64,000 bases of DNA from Candidatus Bipolaricaulota bacterium (GTDB lineage Bacteria > Bipolaricaulota > Bipolaricaulia > UBA7950 > UBA9294): the NCBI GenBank assembly GCA_027007005.1, contig JALTFO010000048.1:1-64000 (forward strand), given 5' to 3'. The notes under the pieces are model-generated. The model did not search any database and was not told where the DNA came from. It saw only the letters and a program-made list of their open reading frames with translations. Made by a program: the position numbers and the translations under genes. This document shows, in pieces, positions 41,144 to 52,917 of this stretch (position 1 is its first letter; each line of letters starts with the position of its first letter).

Positions 41144-41461
41144 CTAGGAAGTGCTTGAGTATCTAACCCGATCTTCCCAATCAGGCAAGTAGACGGACAT
41201 CAAGCTCCTGAAAAGCTTCCCATGATTCTGAACCCTTAGATGCAGTAGCTCATGCACGATTACGTATTCCTGGAACTCCCGGCGTTGCCTAAGGAGCCCC
41301 TCGCTGAAGGTTACAGTCCTATTTGGAGAACACGAAGCCCACTTGTTCTTCATCTTCTGCACCCGAATCTGAGCCGGTTTGACATTGAGTGTGTCCGCCC
41401 AGTCGCGAACGGCTTTCTTGAAGGTGTTCTTGTTGGAGAATCCGCTTTCTTGCTTGGTCAT
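41144..41461 (-). CDS. YgjP/SprT-like (M48-type) zinc metallopeptidase
   Basis: NKWASCSPNRTVTFSEGLLRQRREFQEYVIVHELLHLRVQNHGKLF; HELLH zinc motif. Confidence 0.8.
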   Translation of the reverse strand: MTKQESGFSNKNTFKKAVRDWADTLNVKPAQIRVQKMKNKWASCSPNRTVTFSEGLLRQRREFQEYVIVHELLHLRVQNHGKLFRSLMSVYLPDWEDRVRYSSTS

Positions 41462-41522: not shown

Positions 41523-44438
41523 TCACCTGCTTTCCACACGGAGCATCGCATCAGCCAGTAGTACCATGCGATCCTTCCCCACCAGAGGGAGCAGCATCCT
41601 GTAAATCTCGGCCTTGAGCTGACGGAGTTCTGCCGCATTCTCTCTATAGTTCGGGAATCGCTCAAAGATACCTTTCATCGTTGCCGCAATGCTATCCGAT
41701 TCCGCCACCCCTTCCTTCTTGAGTACCCAGTAGAGGGAGAACGTGGTTACATCGAACCCCATCTCCGATTGCTGACGGCGTGCCTCTACGATCTCTCGAA
41801 TCACAAGCTCGATTCTCCGCAAGGAGTCTTCCGTCGTTATCTGGCGGTTATCGAAGGCTTCAAGGATTGCCTCGGCCCGGTCACCGATCGGCTTAAGGTA
41901 TGGGCTTGAATCCTCCTCTTCGATGACGGCCCTTCGAATGCTGTTAACCAGGTTGATTACCTTCGCTTTGTCCGACCCACCAAAGTCCTTGATTGCCCGA
42001 AGTGTGTTCTCGTCGATCTTCACCGCGGGGAGTGTCATGTCAAGTCCGTAGCTCTCGGCCTTCTCCCTGACCAGTTGCCGGGTCTTGCGGGCGACATCGC
42101 TGTATAGGGTCGACCTTTTTCTGAAGGCATTTTGAATGATCCGATACAAGATAGAGAGAGAACCGAAATCGTCAATGGAGTCCCGCAGATCAGGCGAAGG
42201 CGAGAGGATCTCATAGAGCGTTTCGATCTGCTTGTAGAGGTGATAGAAGGCCTCCCGCTTGTCTTGATCGGTGAACGCCTCGATCGCTTCTTCAATCCCT
42301 CTATCGTCCAGCAATTCTCTGCTCAGGATGATGTATTCTCGTGCCGGACCCGCCATCATCTCCTTGAACTTATTCAGGAGAAGATCGAGATCCTCGATGA
42401 CGCCACTGACAACATCGGAATCAAACGCCAGCGCTTTCTCAAGTTTCTCAAAGATCCCTATGAAATCGACTACGAGCCCGCAAGGCTTGCGGCTCTCTTG
42501 GCCCCATTCATAGGGACGATTGACCCGCGCGATGGCCTGGAGGAGCACATGATCCCGCATCGGCTTGTCGAGGTACATGCAGTAGAGAATGGGCGCATCG
42601 AAGCCGGTGAGGAGCTTGTCGGTGACGATGAAGATCTTCGGCAGCGTATCTGGCTTCGGAAACAGCTTACGCGCCTTCTTTTCCGCATCCGGGCTCACCT
42701 GATGACGATACACGAGAGGGTACTTCTCGCTGTCGTGCTGCGCGGATGTGTAAATCGGAAGGGAGTATTCAGGAGGGAGAACCTTGTCCAGCGCCTCCTT
42801 ATACAGCGCGCAGGCCTCACGATCCACCGCCACCAAAAACGCCTTGTATCCAAGGGGTTCAATGTTCTCTTGAAAGTGTTTCGCCACGAATGCTGCAACC
42901 TTCTCGACTCGATCCCGCGACTTGAGGAACGTCTTCAGGCGCATCGCATGATCTAGGATCCTGTTCAACTCGTCTACGTCGCTGATCCCCTCGGCCTCCG
43001 CCAGATTCAGGAACTCCTCTTCAAGTTGTTGGCGTGGGACTCTGATCTCATTTGGCGCAAGGACGTATTTTAGTGGGACAGTCGTACCATCTTCGATCGA
43101 CTCCACAATCGAATACTTGTCTAGATACCCTTGCTCATCTTCCTTGCCGAAGATCTTGAACGTTCCCTTGCCGTATGCCGTCTTGTCGATCGGCGTACCG
43201 GTGAACCCGATCAATGTGGCGTTCGGGAGGGCGCCAACGAGGTAATTGCCGAGATCGCCACCTGTTGTTCTGTGTGCTTCGTCAATTAGGACGAAGATGT
43301 TCTCACGGGTGTTGATGCCCTTCGGAATTCCGTCAAACTTGTGAATCATCGAAATAATCAACCCGCGAAAGTCCGAGGCAAGGAGTTCGCGCAGATGCTT
43401 CTTGCTAGTGGCCTGCTCGATCTTGATATCGTGCGAATGCATTTCGCCAAGCAATCGCTCAACCCAACCTCCAAGCTGTCCCTCCAATTCATTCCGGTCG
43501 ATCATTAGAATTACGGTGGCCTTACCAAACGTCCCTTTGTCCTGAAGGATCATCCGGGCCGCCGTGATCATGGTGAATGTCTTGCCTGACCCTTGAGTGT
43601 GCCAAATCAGGCCGGTTGCTTTCGCCTTGTCGGCGCATCGATCGAGGATCTTCTCCACCGCCCGGGTTTGGTGTTGGCGCAGGATCGTCTTCTGCAGTTC
43701 ATCTTCCTTGTAGAAGAAGAGGACCCATTCCTTGAGCATGGTCAAAAACCGCTGACGGTCGAAGAACCGTTTGACCTTGTTCTCGTAGTTCCCGGATTCC
43801 TCGTTTCGCCAGTTGAACAGGTTCTTCCGATCCAGGTTCCACGTAGCCCCGTAGTAGAAATCGAGAAGGTTAGTGATGTCGAACACCTGCGGAGCGGTCA
43901 ACATCTCAGGCGTCTCGTGGTGGTACTCCCGGATTTGAGTCATCGGCTTTTCGATTCCCTTTGGTCTCTGTGCACTCTTAGTCTCTACGATAGCGACCGG
44001 AATCCCATTGATCAGGAACATCACATCTGCTCGGTTGGTCTCCTGGCCATTCGTGTACTGCCACTCGTCGGTTACGTGGAAGACGTTGCGCTCAGAATTG
44101 GCGAAGTCGACCAGTATCACATTCCGCTCCCGCTTCTCGTTTTGGTCATAGATGCTCTTCTCTCCACGGAGCCACGCGAGGATCTCCGCGTTCCCCTCAA
44201 TCGTATTAGGGACGGACTCGATACTGCGGACGATCGCATCGACGTTTTCGACCGTGATTAGTTGTGGATTTAGCTCAATGAGCCTCTCTTCTAGTACACG
44301 CCTGAACAGCATTCCTCCTACGCCTTTCCGCAACGAAAGAGCTTCCGACGTAGGGACATACGTCCAACCGATCTCCTCCGCGTAGCGGATGAGGGGGTTC
44401 TGAACCGTATCGTTTTCTGTTCCTGGGTGGGTTGCCAT
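41523..44438 (-). CDS. hsdR: Type I restriction endonuclease subunit R
   Basis: RADVMFLINGIPVAIVETKS nuclease region, WHTQGSGKTFTMI Walker A, LIDEAHRTTGGDLG DEAH, GFTGTPIDK; RBS GAGGAG before ATG at 44438. Confidence 0.93.
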   Translation of the reverse strand: MATHPGTENDTVQNPLIRYAEEIGWTYVPTSEALSLRKGVGGMLFRRVLEERLIELNPQLITVENVDAIVRSIESVPNTIEGNAEILAWLRGEKSIYDQNEKRERNVILVDFANSERNVFHVTDEWQYTNGQETNRADVMFLINGIPVAIVETKSAQRPKGIEKPMTQIREYHHETPEMLTAPQVFDITNLLDFYYGATWNLDRKNLFNWRNEESGNYENKVKRFFDRQRFLTMLKEWVLFFYKEDELQKTILRQHQTRAVEKILDRCADKAKATGLIWHTQGSGKTFTMITAARMILQDKGTFGKATVILMIDRNELEGQLGGWVERLLGEMHSHDIKIEQATSKKHLRELLASDFRGLIISMIHKFDGIPKGINTRENIFVLIDEAHRTTGGDLGNYLVGALPNATLIGFTGTPIDKTAYGKGTFKIFGKEDEQGYLDKYSIVESIEDGTTVPLKYVLAPNEIRVPRQQLEEEFLNLAEAEGISDVDELNRILDHAMRLKTFLKSRDRVEKVAAFVAKHFQENIEPLGYKAFLVAVDREACALYKEALDKVLPPEYSLPIYTSAQHDSEKYPLVYRHQVSPDAEKKARKLFPKPDTLPKIFIVTDKLLTGFDAPILYCMYLDKPMRDHVLLQAIARVNRPYEWGQESRKPCGLVVDFIGIFEKLEKALAFDSDVVSGVIEDLDLLLNKFKEMMAGPAREYIILSRELLDDRGIEEAIEAFTDQDKREAFYHLYKQIETLYEILSPSPDLRDSIDDFGSLSILYRIIQNAFRKRSTLYSDVARKTRQLVREKAESYGLDMTLPAVKIDENTLRAIKDFGGSDKAKVINLVNSIRRAVIEEEDSSPYLKPIGDRAEAILEAFDNRQITTEDSLRRIELVIREIVEARRQQSEMGFDVTTFSLYWVLKKEGVAESDSIAATMKGIFERFPNYRENAAELRQLKAEIYRMLLPLVGKDRMVLLADAMLRVESR

Positions 44439-44457: not shown

Positions 44458-44916
44458 CTAATCGTTATACCCCTTGTCTTTGTTGTCCATAGGGTGCTCC
44501 TGGTTGCTGCCACACCACTTACCTGTGGCAAGCCAGATTTCGTAGTGCAACAACCAAAGGGACGTCCACGGCACAATTGTTCTGGCAATGGGCATTGTGG
44601 AATCCCATTCGTTGTACTTGTATCGGAACAAGCACAGTTCCTTGGCGGAAAACACGTGAGGAATCCTGCTGCCATTCCTGGATACAATCTCGGGCGAAAC
44701 TACCGACACCACCGGTCTCTGTTTCAAGCGGTATTTGATCTTCACAGTGTATTTCTCACTCAATGGACTTGGCTTCAATTGACCTACCCATGTTAGTACG
44801 ATATGCTTATTGAACGTGACGTCTGAGTCTGGAAATACACGTTTCAACCCCGCTGCTTGCACAGCAAGTGGCAGTGTCTTCAGTCTTTTTCGCAGGTATG
44901 ACTTCTTATTTCCCAT
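44458..44916 (-). CDS. E2-like (ubiquitin-conjugating-fold) CBASS accessory protein, short type II CBASS
   Basis: 152 aa; HVFSAKELCLFRYKYNEWDSTMPIARTIVPWTSLWLLHYEIWLATGKWCGSNQEHP: LCL(F/Y)...IAxTIVPWTxxWLxxYExWLATGxW pattern recalled from CD-NTase-linked E2 proteins; position directly after a CD-NTase. Confidence 0.65.
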   Translation of the reverse strand: MGNKKSYLRKRLKTLPLAVQAAGLKRVFPDSDVTFNKHIVLTWVGQLKPSPLSEKYTVKIKYRLKQRPVVSVVSPEIVSRNGSRIPHVFSAKELCLFRYKYNEWDSTMPIARTIVPWTSLWLLHYEIWLATGKWCGSNQEHPMDNKDKGYND

Positions 44917-46078
44917 ACCAAGTGTTCGGTTTTACTGTGGCTCCGACAGTTCCTAAGAGACCAGTCTTCGGGGCCATCCGCAGCTGACCGTCCCGTTGTT
45001 GCTTATCCATAACGTTTCCGTATTTCTCGAAAGCGTGCCTAGCAATTTCTGCTCCTAGCGCGAGAGACAGACTATCCGAGATCTTTTGCAGACCAGTCTC
45101 CTTGATCGCGCTTGAGAAGTCTGTCTCAACTTGCTGGAGCCATTCAAAGAAACGCTTGGCTCTCTGAGATTCTTTTTTCCACTTGTCAGCAAAGTTCTCC
45201 TTTGGGTTAATCGGGTTTGGCACCCAGTATTCGCCATTTCTGGTCTTGATACCGTCACGTAGCTTTGCCGTTAGGGCTATCAACGCCTCAAGGATGTCGG
45301 TTTCGCCGTTGTATGCGTTTGCAGCAAGCGTTGTGGTGATTATGGAAATTGGTTTATCGTCGCGATTCCCTTGATAGTGTACGTCGCGATGGCGTTTCAA
45401 GATCTGAATAGCTCTTCGAAGAGGAGTAGGCACGCGCTCTAGGGGAATCTCTTCTACGTGAACCTCCACAGCCTTTGCCATCATTTCTCGGCGTTCCAAC
45501 AGCAGCGTCTTTTGCTGATCGTTGAACCAGTTGGCGTACCCTTTGGGGTTACTGTGTTGCCACTTCGGGAGTTCCGTATCTGTGATGATAAGTGCATCAT
45601 CGAGATCCCGGAGGTTGTACTCAGCAGCCTTATCGTCTGGGAGCGCAGGCAGGACGTCCATATGGAACTGCCCCTTGTAGTCCAGTGTCCAACATCGGCG
45701 ACCAGGAACAAGCTCTGGAACTTCACTACCCTCGGCAGCTAGACGTTGAAGATAGCGCTTCAGCTGGTCCTCTAAGTCAGCTTTCAATTCTTCCTGAGCC
45801 GTGCTCTCTTTCTGAATCTCGCGACGATAGACAAGGTCTACGTCGTATGCATCTTCATCTTTTACGGGCCGAACAGCGGTACCTAGTCTCAGAGACCCCT
45901 GAGGATAGATCTCCGCATCAGACTGGTAGTGTTCGAGATGGTCTTCCTTCAACCAGTCACCCAGATCCATGTACTTTCTTCGGACCTCTCGATAGACATC
46001 CTCAGGAATATCGAGTTCCTCCCCAACATAACCAATGATGTCCGCTAACTGCATTCCTTTCTGCTGATCAACATCCAT
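44906..46078 (-). CDS. CD-NTase (cGAS/DncV-like nucleotidyltransferase), CBASS
   Basis: YPQGSLRLGTAVRPVKDEDAYDVDLVY (GS + DxD) and FHMDVLPALPD (third Asp); C-terminus ...VKPNTWYGK; RBS-like GGGGGTAGG before ATG at 46078. Confidence 0.85.
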   Translation of the reverse strand: MDVDQQKGMQLADIIGYVGEELDIPEDVYREVRRKYMDLGDWLKEDHLEHYQSDAEIYPQGSLRLGTAVRPVKDEDAYDVDLVYRREIQKESTAQEELKADLEDQLKRYLQRLAAEGSEVPELVPGRRCWTLDYKGQFHMDVLPALPDDKAAEYNLRDLDDALIITDTELPKWQHSNPKGYANWFNDQQKTLLLERREMMAKAVEVHVEEIPLERVPTPLRRAIQILKRHRDVHYQGNRDDKPISIITTTLAANAYNGETDILEALIALTAKLRDGIKTRNGEYWVPNPINPKENFADKWKKESQRAKRFFEWLQQVETDFSSAIKETGLQKISDSLSLALGAEIARHAFEKYGNVMDKQQRDGQLRMAPKTGLLGTVGATVKPNTWYGK

Positions 46079-46091
46079 TTTCCTACCCCCT

Positions 46092-47069
46092 CTACTTATC
46101 ATTTTCCTGGTCTGTTTCATCCGTCAAGGTATAGATGGGCTCGTATGGCGATGCCTTATGACTCAGAAACATGTTACTAACCTCATTCACGGCGTTCCGC
46201 GCTTCCGTTCTTCCTATGCCTTCCAGTTCGAGGGACATCTTGTCGAGCGCATAGTGCCCGCCCAGAATGGGATTGATTCGGAGGAAGCGTTCCTTCCCGA
46301 GAATGTGAAGGCACTGATTCTCAGCAGCACAGCTTTGACCAGCCATCATGAACTCCAGCACCTTGCTCCGCCATGTCCACAGTCCTCCGGTGATGTGCTT
46401 ACTCATTGAGGTAATGGCTTGCCGAGTCGTACCGATACTGAACATCGCTATTGACCCTTGACTTTGGTTTAAGTAACCAAGCGCCTCAGCTAGAGCCACC
46501 ATTGAAGGGTTGTTTGCCCACACGCCGCCGTCGATGAGGCGTACACCTGTGTCACTTATCGATGCAGGGAAGTACGTTGGCGCGGACGCGGTTGCGAGAG
46601 CAATGTTCATTGCCAGCTCCTTGTAGTCCGTCTTGAGTCGCTCGTGATGAGGAGTCTTGTATAAATGGACATCACCCCTGACGGAGTCATAAGAGGGAAT
46701 GATCAAACGCTTTGTGCTTTCGCCGAGCCGTCTGTCTCCGAAGTAGTCCTGAAGAGCTTGGCGAAGGGGCTCTGCCGGGTACTTGCGCCGAAAGACCCAC
46801 TTCACGCTGCCTAGAGCCCGAGTCCATCGACTCTGTGCCGGGAAGATGTCCTTGCCTCGTTCCTTGTAGAAGCCCAATATCTCCTTGGGGCTGAAGCCTA
46901 GTCCCAGAGCTATTGCTATGATACCCCCTGCAGAGGTGCCGGCGATCAGATCAAAATGGTCCACGATCCTCTTGCGTGTATTTTCTTCCAGTGCAGCCAG
47001 GAAGGAAGCCGTGAATATCCCCTTCAGTCCGCCGCCATCGAGAGAGAGAATTTGAAAGCGCTCGGTCAT
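46092..47069 (-). CDS. capV: CapV-like patatin phospholipase (CBASS effector)
   Basis: LSLDGGGLKGIFTASFL, GTSAGGIIAIALGLG, DGGVWANNPSMVALAEA; ATGA overlap with upstream hsdS. Confidence 0.88.
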   Translation of the reverse strand: MTERFQILSLDGGGLKGIFTASFLAALEENTRKRIVDHFDLIAGTSAGGIIAIALGLGFSPKEILGFYKERGKDIFPAQSRWTRALGSVKWVFRRKYPAEPLRQALQDYFGDRRLGESTKRLIIPSYDSVRGDVHLYKTPHHERLKTDYKELAMNIALATASAPTYFPASISDTGVRLIDGGVWANNPSMVALAEALGYLNQSQGSIAMFSIGTTRQAITSMSKHITGGLWTWRSKVLEFMMAGQSCAAENQCLHILGKERFLRINPILGGHYALDKMSLELEGIGRTEARNAVNEVSNMFLSHKASPYEPIYTLTDETDQENDK

Positions 47070-48334
47070 AATTCCACCTCGCTCACATCGATGTCGAGAT
47101 CAACTGTGCGAATCTCACCGGTCATCAGCTTGTCCAACGTCGTTTTGAAGAGGTCTTGAAGACCGGATTTCTTGGATTCGTGGAAACTTAGCTTTGCATC
47201 GACTGTGTCCAAGGAGCAGGCGATCTCCTCCTGTTCTTTCTTTGTGCTTGGGACAGGGAATTCCAGCGGATCCACATTCTTCTTGTTGAGCTGTGGTGTT
47301 GGACCCAGGTCCTGCAACATCGTGAGGTCGAAAGTCAGGAACCAATAGTAAAGGTAAGGTAGTACGATCGAATCATTGGGGACCACAGCAATCAGGTTTG
47401 GATCGAGCAGCGTCCATTGCGTCGTTACGCGTTTCTTGTTTGTCGCGATTGCAGCTCCCCTCTTTGGGAAGATAACCGAGTTAGGTGGCACAGCCTTCTT
47501 TTGAGCGACCACCTTTGGTAGCCTGATTTCGATGTTTGAACAGAGGATGTCGCGATCATTGCCGGCAAGATTCATGTCCGAGACCTTGATCGCATGAACC
47601 AAAACATCTTCTTTGCTTCCAGTATTCCTCGCTTCCAGATCACGAAATGCGACTGTTGAGCTCCGGACCTGGGAACAGGACCGAATAGTTATGACCTTCC
47701 AACTCTCCGGAATCTCGCCGATCTCGGTCATCTTTGTCTTTTCGCCACGGGTGCCGTGGGTGAAGAGGTACTGCATAGTAGATTTCTTGAGGTCACGGAG
47801 TGACTGAATGATATTCTCCTGCATCTCAACTGCCTGTTGGATCTTCAACAATACCGCTGCGATCCTCTTTTGTTCCAAAAGTGGGGGAAGAGCGATCTCC
47901 TGTTTTAGGACATCTTTGTCGGTAACAGCAGGATAGCTCGCACCGTGCTGTGAGTCAGCGATAGCCTTGTTTATTCCATCTGAGAGGAGAAGGAAGTACA
48001 GAAATTCAGGCACTGCCATCTTCCTGTTGGCACGGACAACGCAGAATGCAGTGGATGCGATGTGATCATCGTATTCTGGAGGGACTAGCGCTATTCTCTG
48101 GAGTGTCGGTCGAATGGTTGCATAGAGCACATCTCTCGCATGAACGATCTTCCTTGCCCTCCCAGGCGCGGTCGTTCCAGTCACTACTTGCGGAGAAGTG
48201 ATCTTGAAAAGATCGTTTGATACAGCCGAGACATCGATATAGTAGAAATTGCCCCGTGGCTCTGACCGCGGCTTCCACTGGCTCGTCTTCAGACAGGCGT
48301 TCCTCAATGCCATGTTTTTCCACTCGTTCTTCAT
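47066..48334 (-). CDS. hsdS: Type I restriction-modification specificity subunit
   Basis: Two TRD halves; ALPPLLEQKRIAAVLLKIQQAVEMQENIIQSLRDLKKSTMQYLFTHG spacer; EIGEIPESWKV. Confidence 0.9.
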   Translation of the reverse strand: MKNEWKNMALRNACLKTSQWKPRSEPRGNFYYIDVSAVSNDLFKITSPQVVTGTTAPGRARKIVHARDVLYATIRPTLQRIALVPPEYDDHIASTAFCVVRANRKMAVPEFLYFLLLSDGINKAIADSQHGASYPAVTDKDVLKQEIALPPLLEQKRIAAVLLKIQQAVEMQENIIQSLRDLKKSTMQYLFTHGTRGEKTKMTEIGEIPESWKVITIRSCSQVRSSTVAFRDLEARNTGSKEDVLVHAIKVSDMNLAGNDRDILCSNIEIRLPKVVAQKKAVPPNSVIFPKRGAAIATNKKRVTTQWTLLDPNLIAVVPNDSIVLPYLYYWFLTFDLTMLQDLGPTPQLNKKNVDPLEFPVPSTKKEQEEIACSLDTVDAKLSFHESKKSGLQDLFKTTLDKLMTGEIRTVDLDIDVSEVEL

Positions 48335-48368: not shown

Positions 48369-48995
48369 TCACGGCTTCTTCCTTCGATAGTCGTTCGGAT
48401 CGATACAGGTATCATAGGTGGCGCGATCGACGCGAATCCAATCTGTTCTGTTGATGCCACGGCGATTGCGGGATGTCGGACTGAACGGAAAAGCGCATCC
48501 CACTTTGATCCAACGATCATCTCTCCGAGCGATCTTCCGGATTTCGTCGGCCACTTCGCTCAGGTCCTGATCCTGGCTGAAGATCACGGCAACGTCATAC
48601 TGGTTCTCCAAGGCACCGCGCACCACATCAAGGGCAAGGCGAATGTCAATTCCTTTCTCTCTGCCGACCAATGCTGTTGTTAGTGTGCCGTCAGAGGCTT
48701 TTATTGACTGGTTTGAGTAGCGTAAAGGGCGGGAATAGGTGTGGATATTGCGCGTTCCCATAGCGGAGAGCTTGGCAACCCAAAAATGATTCCGTTTTGG
48801 ATCAATATCCGGATTAGGAATCCCGGTATAGAAGCAAATACCGGTCAAGTCCCAGCTCTGCTGAACACAGATGGTCTCGGCTAGTTGTCGGATGTTGTAG
48901 TTCGGATAGGGATAACCGAACGCTTCCTTGACGGCGTTAAACAAGTTCTGTCCATCAATGTAAGCGATTGTGCGTTTGGAGGTGGGCTCTTTCAT
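48369..48995 (-). CDS. NYN-domain (LabA/DUF88-like) putative ribonuclease
   Basis: TIAYIDGQNLFNAVKEAFG, GREKGIDIRLALDVVRGAL, AVIFSQDQDLSEVADEIRKIA; RBS GGAGGTGGAGCT. Confidence 0.82.
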   Translation of the reverse strand: MKEPTSKRTIAYIDGQNLFNAVKEAFGYPYPNYNIRQLAETICVQQSWDLTGICFYTGIPNPDIDPKRNHFWVAKLSAMGTRNIHTYSRPLRYSNQSIKASDGTLTTALVGREKGIDIRLALDVVRGALENQYDVAVIFSQDQDLSEVADEIRKIARRDDRWIKVGCAFPFSPTSRNRRGINRTDWIRVDRATYDTCIDPNDYRRKKP

Positions 48996-49072: not shown

Positions 49073-49101
49073 ATAATACAACGAGACGTCACAGGTGTCA
49101 A
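49073..49101 (-). promoter_or_regulatory. Internal promoter TTGACA-17-TATTAT between hsdM and the NYN gene
   Basis: -35 at 49096-49101, -10 at 49073-49078; followed by a CCCCGC...GCGGGG hairpin at 49024-49056. Confidence 0.65.
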
Positions 49102-49119: not shown

Positions 49120-50961
49120 TCATTCCGTTTCCTCTCCGAAACCAAGCTTGTTGAAGACTTTTCGCAGTTCGACATCGATCTCCTCGGCTTTCTTCTCAAG
49201 ACCATCAGGACCCCAAAGCTCATCTAGAATCTCGGGAATTGGCCGGTAAACCTCCTTCTCGCTTGTGTCCACGTAGCCTGAGGGAGAGAGGTTGTAGTCG
49301 TTCTCCGCTGCCTCTTCGTTAGTGATGACCTTGACAAACCGTTCGATGTCCTGCCCTTTGATGAATCCCTGAACGATCTTTTGAATATTCTCGTCGGGGA
49401 TGTAGTTCTTCGGACGTCCCTTCTTAAATTCGCGGCTTGCGTTCACGAGCACAATCTTATCTTTACGCTGCGGAAGCTTGTTCCGATTGAGCAGGATGAT
49501 GATCCCAGCGGCGCTAGTGTTGTAGAATAGGTTGTCCGGCAGAAGAATGACGCCCTCAATGAGGTCATGGTCGACGAACCATTTACGGATAATCTTCTCC
49601 TTATCCTCGTTCTGGCTTCCGCTCCCCCTAGTGACAGCCCCAGTGTCCAAGACAACAGCCGCTCGTCCCGTAGGCTTGAGCGAGGCGAGAGTATGCTGAA
49701 TCCAGGCCCAGTCTGCTTTGCCAGATGTTATTCCACCATGTTCCTCAAACCGTCCGAATTCATCACTCTCGTAGATCGCTCGATTGTAGGCTTGGTTCCA
49801 CATGGGATTCGCAACGACGATGTCAAACTTTCTGAGGCTTGTGTCTGAATCCCGAAACTTCGGGTTGGTCATCGAATTGCCGCGCACGATCTTGCCTTCC
49901 ATGTCGTGAATGACCATATTCATCCGAGCGATGGCGTAGCTTGAACCGTTTATCTCTTGCCCGTAAAGCTTAAGCGGGCGATTGACCTTCAGCTCGCGTT
50001 CCTGAAGGGCCAGTTCGCACTTGATCAATAATCCTGCCGACCCACACGCATAGTCATATACTTCTTCACCCTGAGCCGGCCGAACCATATGGGCCATGAG
50101 CCAACCGACTTCGGTTGGCGTGAAAAATTCACCGGCGCTCTGTCCCTGCCCTTCGGCAAACTTTCGGAGCAGGTACTCATAACAGCGTCCGAGGAAGTCC
50201 GGCTCCACGTCGTAGAGCCCGAGTCGGTAGCGGGGATCAGAGAGTGCCTCCATCACCCCTGCCAGTGCCGAGTCGCTGATCTCTCGCTCCCCAGTGCGGG
50301 TTTCGTTGAAGTCTACGGTGTCGATGACCCCGCTGAGATCTTTGGAACGATCCCCGGCGTTGGCTTTAACGATGGCTCTCATCGTGAGGGTGAGCTGCTC
50401 GCCAAGTGTCTTCGGCCTCTGTCCTTCGTGCCAATCAAATACCTCCCGGCCGCTGACAACCGGCCACCGCGCCTCGGGCGGAATGTAGAACCGCACCAGG
50501 CTCTTGTCGGCTTCAATGATCTCGAGAGCCGTCTCACGGTCGCCGTATGTCTCGGCAAGGCGTTCGACTTCATCCTCAAAGACATCCGAGAGGCGTTTGA
50601 CGAAAAGAAGAGGCAGGATGTAGTCCTTGAACTTAGGGGCATCCTTCTCGCCCCGGATCGAGCAGGCGGCACTCCAGAGCATCTGCTCCATCAACTTCGT
50701 GGTGAGCACATCTTTTCTCAAGACCCTGTGACGACGCTTGGGGATACCAAGATCGAGAGCTGGTCTCCGTTCTTTAAGGCCAACATCTGCAACAAGCTCG
50801 CTGATCGCCTGCTTGGCCCTGCCTCGTGGTGTAGTTCGCCCGTTCTCCCAGCGATTCAATGTGGAGAAAGCTACGCCAAGCCTAGCGGCAAGTTCTTCCT
50901 GGCTTAGCTCAAGCTTATCTCTTAATTGTTTTAGAATCTCAGGGATGTCTCTATCGTCCAT
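49120..50961 (-). CDS. hsdM: Type I restriction-modification methyltransferase subunit with N-terminal XRE HTH domain
   Basis: N-term LRDKLELSQEELAARLGVAFSTLNRWENGRTTP (HTH); GEFFTPTEVGWLMAHMV, DYACGSAGLLI, FDIVVANPMWNQ. Confidence 0.92.
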   Translation of the reverse strand: MDDRDIPEILKQLRDKLELSQEELAARLGVAFSTLNRWENGRTTPRGRAKQAISELVADVGLKERRPALDLGIPKRRHRVLRKDVLTTKLMEQMLWSAACSIRGEKDAPKFKDYILPLLFVKRLSDVFEDEVERLAETYGDRETALEIIEADKSLVRFYIPPEARWPVVSGREVFDWHEGQRPKTLGEQLTLTMRAIVKANAGDRSKDLSGVIDTVDFNETRTGEREISDSALAGVMEALSDPRYRLGLYDVEPDFLGRCYEYLLRKFAEGQGQSAGEFFTPTEVGWLMAHMVRPAQGEEVYDYACGSAGLLIKCELALQERELKVNRPLKLYGQEINGSSYAIARMNMVIHDMEGKIVRGNSMTNPKFRDSDTSLRKFDIVVANPMWNQAYNRAIYESDEFGRFEEHGGITSGKADWAWIQHTLASLKPTGRAAVVLDTGAVTRGSGSQNEDKEKIIRKWFVDHDLIEGVILLPDNLFYNTSAAGIIILLNRNKLPQRKDKIVLVNASREFKKGRPKNYIPDENIQKIVQGFIKGQDIERFVKVITNEEAAENDYNLSPSGYVDTSEKEVYRPIPEILDELWGPDGLEKKAEEIDVELRKVFNKLGFGEETE

Positions 50962-50986
50962 GATCTCCTTTGGAACATAACGCTAT

Positions 50987-51016
50987 AATGCTATAGCATT
51001 ACAATCACATTGTCAA
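50987..51016 (-). promoter_or_regulatory. Putative autoregulatory operator (perfect 14-bp palindrome AATGCTATAGCATT) and -35 TTGACA upstream of hsdM
   Basis: Palindrome at 50987-51000, TTGACA (minus) at 51011-51016; hsdM ATG at 50961. Confidence 0.6.
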
Positions 51017-51123: not shown

Positions 51124-52917
51124 TTAGGAAGTCTCCGATCCTTTCAACTCCGACAGCTCATCGATCATCCCCTGCAGGACGTCGAAGCCTCCCTGCCAGA
51201 ATTCTGATGAGACGATGTCGATCCCGGCCTCGGCAAGGATCTCCTGCGGGCTCTTCGATCCGCCGTAGGCGAGGATCTTGAGGAACTTGGGGACGAACGT
51301 TTTTCCCTCTTTCTTGTAGCGCTTGTACAGCGCTAGCACGAGCAGCTGCCCGAAGCTGTATGCGTAGCAGTAGAAGGGAGTGCTGTAGATGTGGGGGATG
51401 GAGACCCACTCGTAGCGGAATTCGTCGCTTAGCTCTACGGCGTCACCGAACTGGTCATTCAGGTTTGCTAGGTATCTCTCAGAGAGAGCGTCGATCGTCG
51501 CTCCAGCCTTGATCAGTGCATGGGCCTCACGCTCGAACAGGACGAAGTACGCTTGCCTGGCAACCGTGGCGTAGGTTCCATCGACGAAGCGGGCGAGCAT
51601 CTCTCGCCTTAGCCCGGGCTCCGATTCGCTTTCAAGCTGATGCTCAAGAAGGAGGATCTCGGAGAAGACGGACGCTGTCTCCGCCAGGGGAAGGGAGGAA
51701 TGGAACGTAAGCGGCGAGTGATCTGCGGCCATGAGGGCGTGCACGGCGTGCCCCAGCTCGTGGGCGAGTGTAGAGACGTCGTCGATCTTGCCGTTGTAGC
51801 TCGTCAGCACCCACGGAGTGAGCCCAGGCAGGACGCCGTAGCAGAAGGCACCGCCGTACTTGCCGGTGCGGACCTCAGAGTCGAGATGCCCCTCGTTGAG
51901 GACTCGCTTAGCGTGCGAAGCCAGAGTCGGCGAGAATGCGTTCAAGCTTGAAAAGACGGTGCTTATCGCCTCATTGAACGGGTAAGTCTCTTCCGATGAT
52001 CCAACCGGAGCGTAGATGTCGTAGCGCCGCAAATGATCCATCCCAAGCCAGCCAGCCTTTAACCGAAAGTAGTCCTGGAACATGCTTACATTGTCGCGGC
52101 AGACATCAAGGAGGACATCGACCGCGGCGTCTGGAATGTCGTTTCTCAGGTTGCGCGAGGCGATCGGGGAGGAGAAGCCACGCAGATCGACCTGTTCATC
52201 AGCCCAGTCGCGCACGATGTGTTGATAAATCTGCCCGAGGACTGTGCTGTTCTCACCGTAGACGCGGTACAGCTCTTTGTACGCGCGTTGACGCAGCTCT
52301 GGGCGTGAATCGCGAGCGTAGGTCATCAACTGCGAACGCGTGAGCGATTTCACCTCGCCATCGACCTCGATCTCAAAGGTGAAGCCGCTCGTCAGCATCT
52401 CATACAGGGTGACAAGCGCCTCCACTCCGTTTAGGTCCTTGATGTTGATCACCTGCTCCACCTGCTCGGAGAGGGTGTAGGGTTTGTATCGACGCAGTGA
52501 GTTCAGGTAGTAGGAGAGATCCCCGCTTACGGCGATGAGACGCTCTGCCGCTGTGTCGTCCAACCCCTTCCACCATAGCTCGAAGAAGAGAGTTCGATTA
52601 TGCGCATCGGCAAGTACACTCTCTACGCGGCCACGGAAGGAGAGAGCGTCCTGATTGGCCGTATCCTCGGCAAACCAGAGTTGGCCATACGCTCCCAGGC
52701 GTCGCATGAGCGAACCAATGCGCTCGACGATAGCAAGGATTTCGCTGAAGTCATCGGTGCTGATATTCGGTGAGAGTATCGTTCGCTTACCCTCAAGATC
52801 GCTGAGCGCACTCTCAAGTTGATCCAGATACTCACTGCCGATATCCTCGGGCCGATCAGCGCTTGGGATCAGGTCGGCAAGCGACCAGCGCCCCTGCTTG
52901 TAGACACGTTCGTTCAT
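51124..52917 (-). CDS. pepF: Oligoendopeptidase F-like M3 metallopeptidase
   Basis: STLAHELGHAVHALMAADHSPLTFHSSLPLAETASVFSE. Confidence 0.9.
   Translation of the reverse strand: MNERVYKQGRWSLADLIPSADRPEDIGSEYLDQLESALSDLEGKRTILSPNISTDDFSEILAIVERIGSLMRRLGAYGQLWFAEDTANQDALSFRGRVESVLADAHNRTLFFELWWKGLDDTAAERLIAVSGDLSYYLNSLRRYKPYTLSEQVEQVINIKDLNGVEALVTLYEMLTSGFTFEIEVDGEVKSLTRSQLMTYARDSRPELRQRAYKELYRVYGENSTVLGQIYQHIVRDWADEQVDLRGFSSPIASRNLRNDIPDAAVDVLLDVCRDNVSMFQDYFRLKAGWLGMDHLRRYDIYAPVGSSEETYPFNEAISTVFSSLNAFSPTLASHAKRVLNEGHLDSEVRTGKYGGAFCYGVLPGLTPWVLTSYNGKIDDVSTLAHELGHAVHALMAADHSPLTFHSSLPLAETASVFSEILLLEHQLESESEPGLRREMLARFVDGTYATVARQAYFVLFEREAHALIKAGATIDALSERYLANLNDQFGDAVELSDEFRYEWVSIPHIYSTPFYCYAYSFGQLLVLALYKRYKKEGKTFVPKFLKILAYGGSKSPQEILAEAGIDIVSSEFWQGGFDVLQGMIDELSELKGSETS

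Follow-up and report, generated by a model that had tools for sequence, protein, structure and literature searches.

A Type I methyltransferase subunit fused to a helix-turn-helix domain as a probable autorepressor of its own operon

Results

Genes and promoters of the hsdM-led island

The stretch of DNA analysed here (64 kb, hereafter the window) carries a Type I restriction-modification operon in which a CBASS module is inserted (Table 1). An oligopeptidase ORF precedes hsdM on the same strand and ends at 51124. The first gene of the operon is a single open frame, in which Pfam domains were assigned to residues 10-48 (HTH_3), 91-239 (HsdM_N, 6e-22) and 254-569 (N6_Mtase, 1e-90). The latter two domains, and the presence of hsdS and hsdR in its operon, are as expected of a Type I HsdM. 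AlphaFold2 predicted the four helices of the HTH at residues 3-17, 21-28, 32-39 and 48-60 with a pLDDT of about 83, and the linker that follows varies in length and sequence among relatives. When compared with the PDB, the protein aligned to HsdM chains (the closest being 7vru, 3lkd and 7bst) from residue 86 or later in every case, indicating that the HTH is absent from every solved relative. The protein scored 214.3 bits against the NCBI equivalog TIGR00497, below the cut-off of 242.75 bits, and matched PADLOC PDLC03028 at 1e-151; by these profile scores it is a member of a divergent HsdM subfamily. Identity with a MADS system was rejected, as the MAD2 methyltransferase model NF047738 gave 55.6 bits against a cut-off of 720 bits.

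Table 1. Positions of the genes and regulatory elements of the island in the window
Feature	Position	Strand	Basis or remark
hsdM fused to HTH	49120..50961	-	613 aa, Type I adenine methyltransferase subunit; Pfam HTH_3 + HsdM_N + N6_Mtase
XRE-type HTH, four helices, residues 3-60	50782..50955	-	HTH_3 3e-12; recognition helix F32-STLNRWEN
Flexible linker between HTH and methyltransferase, residues 64-90	50692..50772	-	pLDDT below 50 (AlphaFold2)
Operator O1, perfect 16-bp palindrome TAATGCTATAGCATTA	50986..51001	.	Sequence; motif conserved ahead of HTH-HsdM genes
Third half-site ATAGCGTTA	50978..50986	-	Direct repeat of the right arm, 8-bp period
-35 element TTGACA of P1	51011..51016	-	10/12 together with TAGCAT, 17-bp spacer
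Candidate -10 element TAGCAT of P1, within the palindrome	50988..50993	-	Best -10 at a 17-bp spacing
Shine-Dalgarno AGGAG of hsdM	50965..50969	-	Sequence; kept in the sister species
P2, TTGACA-17-TATTAT, promoter-like, between hsdM and NYN, without palindromic operator	49073..49101	-	11/12
NYN-domain protein, HEC-09-like	48369..48992	-	Pfam NYN 4.5e-9, PADLOC HEC-09 4e-14; likely ATG 48992
hsdS, specificity subunit	47066..48334	-	Methylase_S 1.6e-17; ORF to 48520, likely start about 48334
CBASS effector, CapV-type patatin phospholipase	46092..47069	-	NCBIfam CBASS_lipase 275.7 bits (cut-off 200); PADLOC Effector 2.8e-104
CBASS CD-NTase, DncV-like	44906..46120	-	PADLOC Cyclase 4e-123; SMODS, DncV-like_NTFase
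CBASS E2-like protein, Type II-short	44458..44916	-	PADLOC E2 3e-47
hsdR	41523..44438	-	HSDR_N, SWI2_SNF2, T1R_D3-like; ORF to 44687, likely start about 44438
YgjP-like metallopeptidase, last in operon	41144..41461	-	YgjP-like 6e-28; ORF to 41665

The promoter region of hsdM (P1) contains a palindrome whose inner 14-mer AATGCTATAGCATT (50987-51000) is separated by 25 bases from the ATG at 50961. An alternative -10 element, TATAGC, lies at 50990-50995 with a 15-bp spacer. The original prediction, made from the letters of the window, had placed a complete HTH at the HsdM N-terminus and a -35 TTGACA at 51011-51016, and both were borne out; its palindrome is indeed perfect and lies over the hsdM promoter, but measures 16 bp rather than 14. 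As the window contains ten perfect 14-bp palindromes, it is little proof by itself, and it is the conservation of the sequence in orthologs that makes the hsdM palindrome significant. The 14-mer occurs once in the 2.67-Mb assembly. One-mismatch versions of the operator were found at three other places in the genome, compared to two for a control pattern, giving no sign of a regulon.

The second promoter-like sequence, P2, is located directly after the hsdM stop codon and is the strongest such match of the island, above P1. The sister species has the same two hexamers, and a similar promoter was found in L062; these three loci are also the only ones among those retrieved that carry the NYN gene between hsdM and hsdS. 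No RNA structure was seen between hsdM and the NYN gene (z = -0.42). Downstream, the PADLOC Specificity_I matches to the hsdS ORF begin near residue 62.

Conservation of the operator ahead of HTH-HsdM genes

In the same-genus ortholog of the sister species (G003; protein about 90% identical), the 23-bp operator stretch TTGTAATGCTATAGCATTATAGC was identical to that of the window at 23/23 positions, whereas the intergenic DNA before the -35 element had diverged (70/107 identical). An alignment of N-terminal sequences was then used to scan 84,980 species genomes for matches spanning both the HTH and HsdM_N. This yielded 80 further HTH-HsdM loci in bins labelled as roughly 20 phyla, and several more were found on viral contigs. 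Cultured carriers of the fusion include Sphingobium sp. Leaf26 and Novosphingobium sp. FSW06-99. Among the matches listed from plasmid and phage collections there was no such fusion, only HTH-less HsdM or stand-alone XRE proteins.

We searched for shared sequences upstream of hsdM in a non-redundant set of 87 HTH-HsdM loci, drawn largely from GTDB species and in part from viral contigs. Beside the -35-type CTTGAC (43 occurrences vs 2.6 expected), the outstanding 8-mers were GCTATAGC, present upstream in 25 loci vs 0.22 expected, and ATGCTATA, in 40 loci vs 1.16 expected. Unsupervised palindromic expectation maximization returned aTATGCTATAGCATAt with a log-likelihood ratio of 399, compared to 38-54 on shuffled sets. 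In most relatives, two to four half-sites lie within 60 bp of the start codon. Where a -35 element was identified, the distance from TTGAC down to the palindrome centre is almost always 12-27 bp, which places the palindrome on the spacer or the -10 element.

For a stricter assessment, we ranked motif scores over the whole locus (4.5-64 kb) after leaving relatives with more than 75% HTH identity out of motif training. The top-scoring position lay just upstream of hsdM in 57 of the 70 main-type loci (0.35 expected), including the window, whose operator is the top site in its 64 kb. In the remaining 13 the best site lay elsewhere, for some of them only owing to a different half-site spacing, and no operator site was found ahead of the HTH-hsdM of L069.

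Specificity for the fusion and co-variation with the recognition helix

To compare fusions with ordinary subunits, we scored the DNA ahead of 20 HTH-less HsdM paralogs from the same genomes. Their maximum was 5.4 bits vs a median of 15.8 bits for the fusions, and 9 bits or more were reached by 0/20 paralogs vs 71/87 fusions; since the fusions themselves served to train this matrix, the leave-out rank test is the stricter of the two, and the start positions of a few controls are uncertain. The motif was likewise absent ahead of the seven nearest HTH-less HsdM relatives, of which six share 53-58% identity with the HsdM of the window and one comes from a viral contig. In a tree of HsdM with a small HTH-less sample, the fusions formed one side of a branch with a support of 99.

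The operator varied together with the protein. Replacement of Ser, Ala or Thr by Pro at the position of window residue 33, in the recognition helix, was associated with TATCA/TGATA half-sites in place of ATAGC/GCTAT (Fisher 9e-9). Operator distance correlated with HTH distance (Spearman 0.37, with 0 of 500 permutations as high), compared to 0.13 for the DNA 60 bp further up, and the partial correlation was 0.23 after methyltransferase distance had been removed. This co-variation is as direct recognition would predict, with relatedness partly controlled and phylogeny confounded with helix type. In the P-group rank test, 16 of 17 loci had their best site at hsdM, a result that is partly a promoter signal since the P-group motif overlaps the -35 box.

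In one locus (L048, 4968-8786), a stand-alone XRE protein whose HTH closely resembles that of HsdM is encoded ahead of an AAA ATPase and an S8 protease, and a GCTATAGC operator that ranks 1 of 10 kb precedes the XRE gene itself. This arrangement suggests that the HTH of HsdM may have been derived from an autoregulated XRE of such a type. Three plasmid XREs (L194-L196) had no matching operator, which indicates that similar-looking XREs do not generally carry the motif.

Operon structure and a swappable cargo slot

The usual gene order was HTH-hsdM, hsdS, optional cargo, hsdR and a YgjP-like metallopeptidase, with HsdR present in 75 loci and YgjP, recurring after hsdR, in 61. The distance from the hsdM stop to the start of the next gene is within 30 nt in 72 of 82 loci (median -4), so that one promoter would serve the operon. 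The gap between hsdM and hsdR exceeded 3.5 kb in 26 of 73 loci, and the cargo found across loci comprised Schlafen/AlbA-type proteins, DUF1016 nucleases, kinases, AbiEii-like AAA proteins, Fic, Thoeris ThsA and CBASS. The CBASS of the window recurs in the corresponding slot of L053. In the sister species (L022, 11752-17736), the island has the same position and the same HTH-HsdM, NYN and HsdS, with an AAA ATPase, a 221-aa protein and a SWIM-like protein replacing CBASS. Judged by its contents in these loci, the interval between hsdS and hsdR is a swappable slot for defence cargo. On viral contig L130 (5080-5120), the gene for a CapV-type CBASS effector and that for HTH-HsdM diverge from starts about 50 bp apart, with the operator-like sequence TTTGCTATATCATA between them.

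Discussion

HTH-HsdM as an autorepressor and competing explanations

We propose that HTH-HsdM is a dual-function Type I subunit that autorepresses the hsdM-led operon from a promoter-overlapping operator (probability roughly 0.85). The computed basis of this reading consists of the fusion, the position of the operator, its association with the fusion and its co-variation with the recognition helix. From these features we infer physical binding, the pairing of two HsdM molecules and repression rather than activation. As the operator sits on the spacer or the -10 element, a position that would exclude RNA polymerase, repression is the predicted outcome. That HsdM is its own transcriptional regulator through the palindrome, as the original prediction had it, is very probably correct, since the motif is strongly conserved, specific to the fusion and co-varies with the recognition helix; the proposed check, whether the palindrome is kept ahead of HTH-HsdM orthologs, turned out in its favour both in the sister species and in the rank test.

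The palindrome might instead be the operator of another regulator, for example a host XRE factor, with the HTH of HsdM merely aiding the search for or holding of DNA. The stand-alone XRE of L048, which bears the same operator, would fit this explanation, as it means that the motif is not exclusive to HsdM. We nevertheless consider it very improbable: the motif tracks the fusion over about 20 phylum-level labels and is absent before HTH-less HsdM of the same genomes, the operator is unique in the genome of the window and changes along with the recognition helix of HsdM itself, and L048 rather points to the origin of the HTH. It would be more surprising still if the palindrome worked in RNA, as a hairpin or attenuator, or were a product of chance in an AT-rich promoter. 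The abundance of perfect palindromes in the window speaks for chance, but the sequence itself is conserved beyond its symmetry; the site lies between -35 and -10 in many relatives and thus outside the transcript, and a gapless palindrome makes a poor RNA hairpin.

C proteins are stand-alone factors that activate their promoter at low level. The original prediction had labelled HsdM as C-protein-like. Under control of this kind, HTH-HsdM would activate at low level and repress at high level to give a timed delay. Multiple half-sites are common ahead of the fusions and could support such cooperative, biphasic control, and a C-like repressor, HsdC, is known from a Type I operon of Mycoplasma gallisepticum (PMC5282649). 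The label was not supported, however, and control of this kind is very improbable: the sites lie over the spacer or the -10 element, downstream of TTGAC, rather than in an activator position upstream of -35; the -35 element of P1 is near consensus and needs no activator; AGTC-type C-boxes are absent; and HsdM is a 613-aa fused enzyme instead of a small stand-alone HTH protein.

Model of autorepression and its relief

In the autorepression model, the XRE domain on its flexible linker would bind the palindromic operator as a pair contributed by two HsdM molecules, possibly both from one M2S complex. Bound over the sigma-70 promoter, HTH-HsdM would block RNA polymerase, and the hsdM-led operon would be autorepressed. 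When HsdM becomes engaged on unmethylated DNA, during establishment or phage entry, repression could be lifted and a burst of expression would follow, beginning with M and including the embedded cargo (CBASS in the window). This weaker part of the model is tentative, and we would not bet on it at even odds. A one-protein sensor-switch, in which free HsdM represses and unmethylated incoming DNA removes it from the operator, is suggested by analogy with the HTH-fused Type II methyltransferases and is conceivable, but on balance unlikely; if true, entry of a phage or plasmid would itself induce the Type I system together with its embedded abortive-infection cargo (CBASS here, other modules elsewhere). 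By analogy with the XRE and metallopeptidase of CapH/CapP, the YgjP-like metallopeptidase might cut the HTH off HsdM.

The situation in the window is modified by P2. As this promoter, which the sister species shares, follows hsdM and has no operator, HsdM here may chiefly limit itself: P2 would drive NYN, HsdS, CBASS and HsdR at a basal rate regardless of HsdM, and HsdS, CBASS and HsdR may be partly free of its control. The further proposal that HsdM times R-M and CBASS expression is thus possible, given the single promoter of most relatives, but is not established for the window with its operator-less P2.

HTH-HsdM constitutes a widespread family of self-contained putative regulators, found in at least 80 species with roughly 20 phylum-level labels among the bins, and a predicted operator is available for most of its members. 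Since other defence modules often occupy the interval between hsdS and hsdR, the family could also be used to study whether expression of suicide-type defences is gated by the methylation machinery.

Comparison with known systems

The CBASS of the window resembles Type II-short CBASS with a CapV effector in its CD-NTase, phospholipase effector and E2-like protein. It differs in its location inside a Type I operon, flanked by hsdS and hsdR, where a separate regulator gene was not seen. The HsdM subunits of EcoR124II and EcoKI share HsdM_N and N6_Mtase with HTH-HsdM, whereas the HTH is covered by none of the PDB HsdM matches. HsdC, the C-protein homolog of Type I systems in Mollicutes, is encoded by a stand-alone gene upstream of hsdMSR and binds direct repeats GTGTTA-N5 (PMC5282649). 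As predicted for HTH-HsdM, it is an HTH regulator of a Type I hsd operon that binds repeats over the core promoter.

The same arrangement of genes is seen in the RptR-RMS-DarTG-M48 island of EPEC, in which hsdM, hsdS, cargo, hsdR and a metallopeptidase gene follow one regulated promoter with three repeats over the -10 element (PMC12255303). RptR is a separate 9-kDa repressor that binds TAGCTA and was contrasted by its authors with classical HTH regulators (PMC12255303). Gene order, a second defence system as cargo and three repeats at a promoter, regulated in EPEC and predicted to be so here, are common to both islands, with an M48 metallopeptidase there and a YgjP-like one here. In contrast to RptR, the predicted regulator in our case is part of HsdM itself, with TGCTATAGCA as its predicted site; no RptR-like small repressor gene lies directly before hsdM in the window, and the operator differs from the TAGCTA repeats. 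HTH-HsdM bears on a question left open for RptR, namely how repression is relieved.

In predicted mechanism, the nearest counterparts are Type II enzymes. Residues 1-71 of M.Ecl18kI and M.SsoII have a regulatory function; two molecules bind a 15-bp inverted repeat and occlude the methyltransferase promoter in competition with RNA polymerase (PMC3695355), and regulatory HTH-fused Type II methyltransferases have been reviewed (PMC12707154). Autorepression by an HTH-fused methyltransferase is thus known for Type II, and we found no description of a Type I counterpart, HTH-HsdM with its operator, in open-access papers, where absence is not proof. M.SsoII, M.Ecl18kI and M.EcoRII join an N-terminal HTH of about 70 residues to a methyltransferase and have an inverted repeat of about 15 bp over their own promoter. 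HTH-HsdM likewise has an HTH for putative sequence-specific DNA recognition at its N-terminus and a fusion-specific inverted repeat over its promoter. The three Type II enzymes, however, are single-subunit C5-methyltransferases whose endonucleases are separate, while HTH-HsdM is an N6 Type I subunit (N6_Mtase/HsdM_N) that acts with HsdS and HsdR and heads an operon with defence cargo, and the operators are unrelated in sequence. By this analogy, HTH-HsdM would work like the SsoII-type enzymes while lying outside their family.
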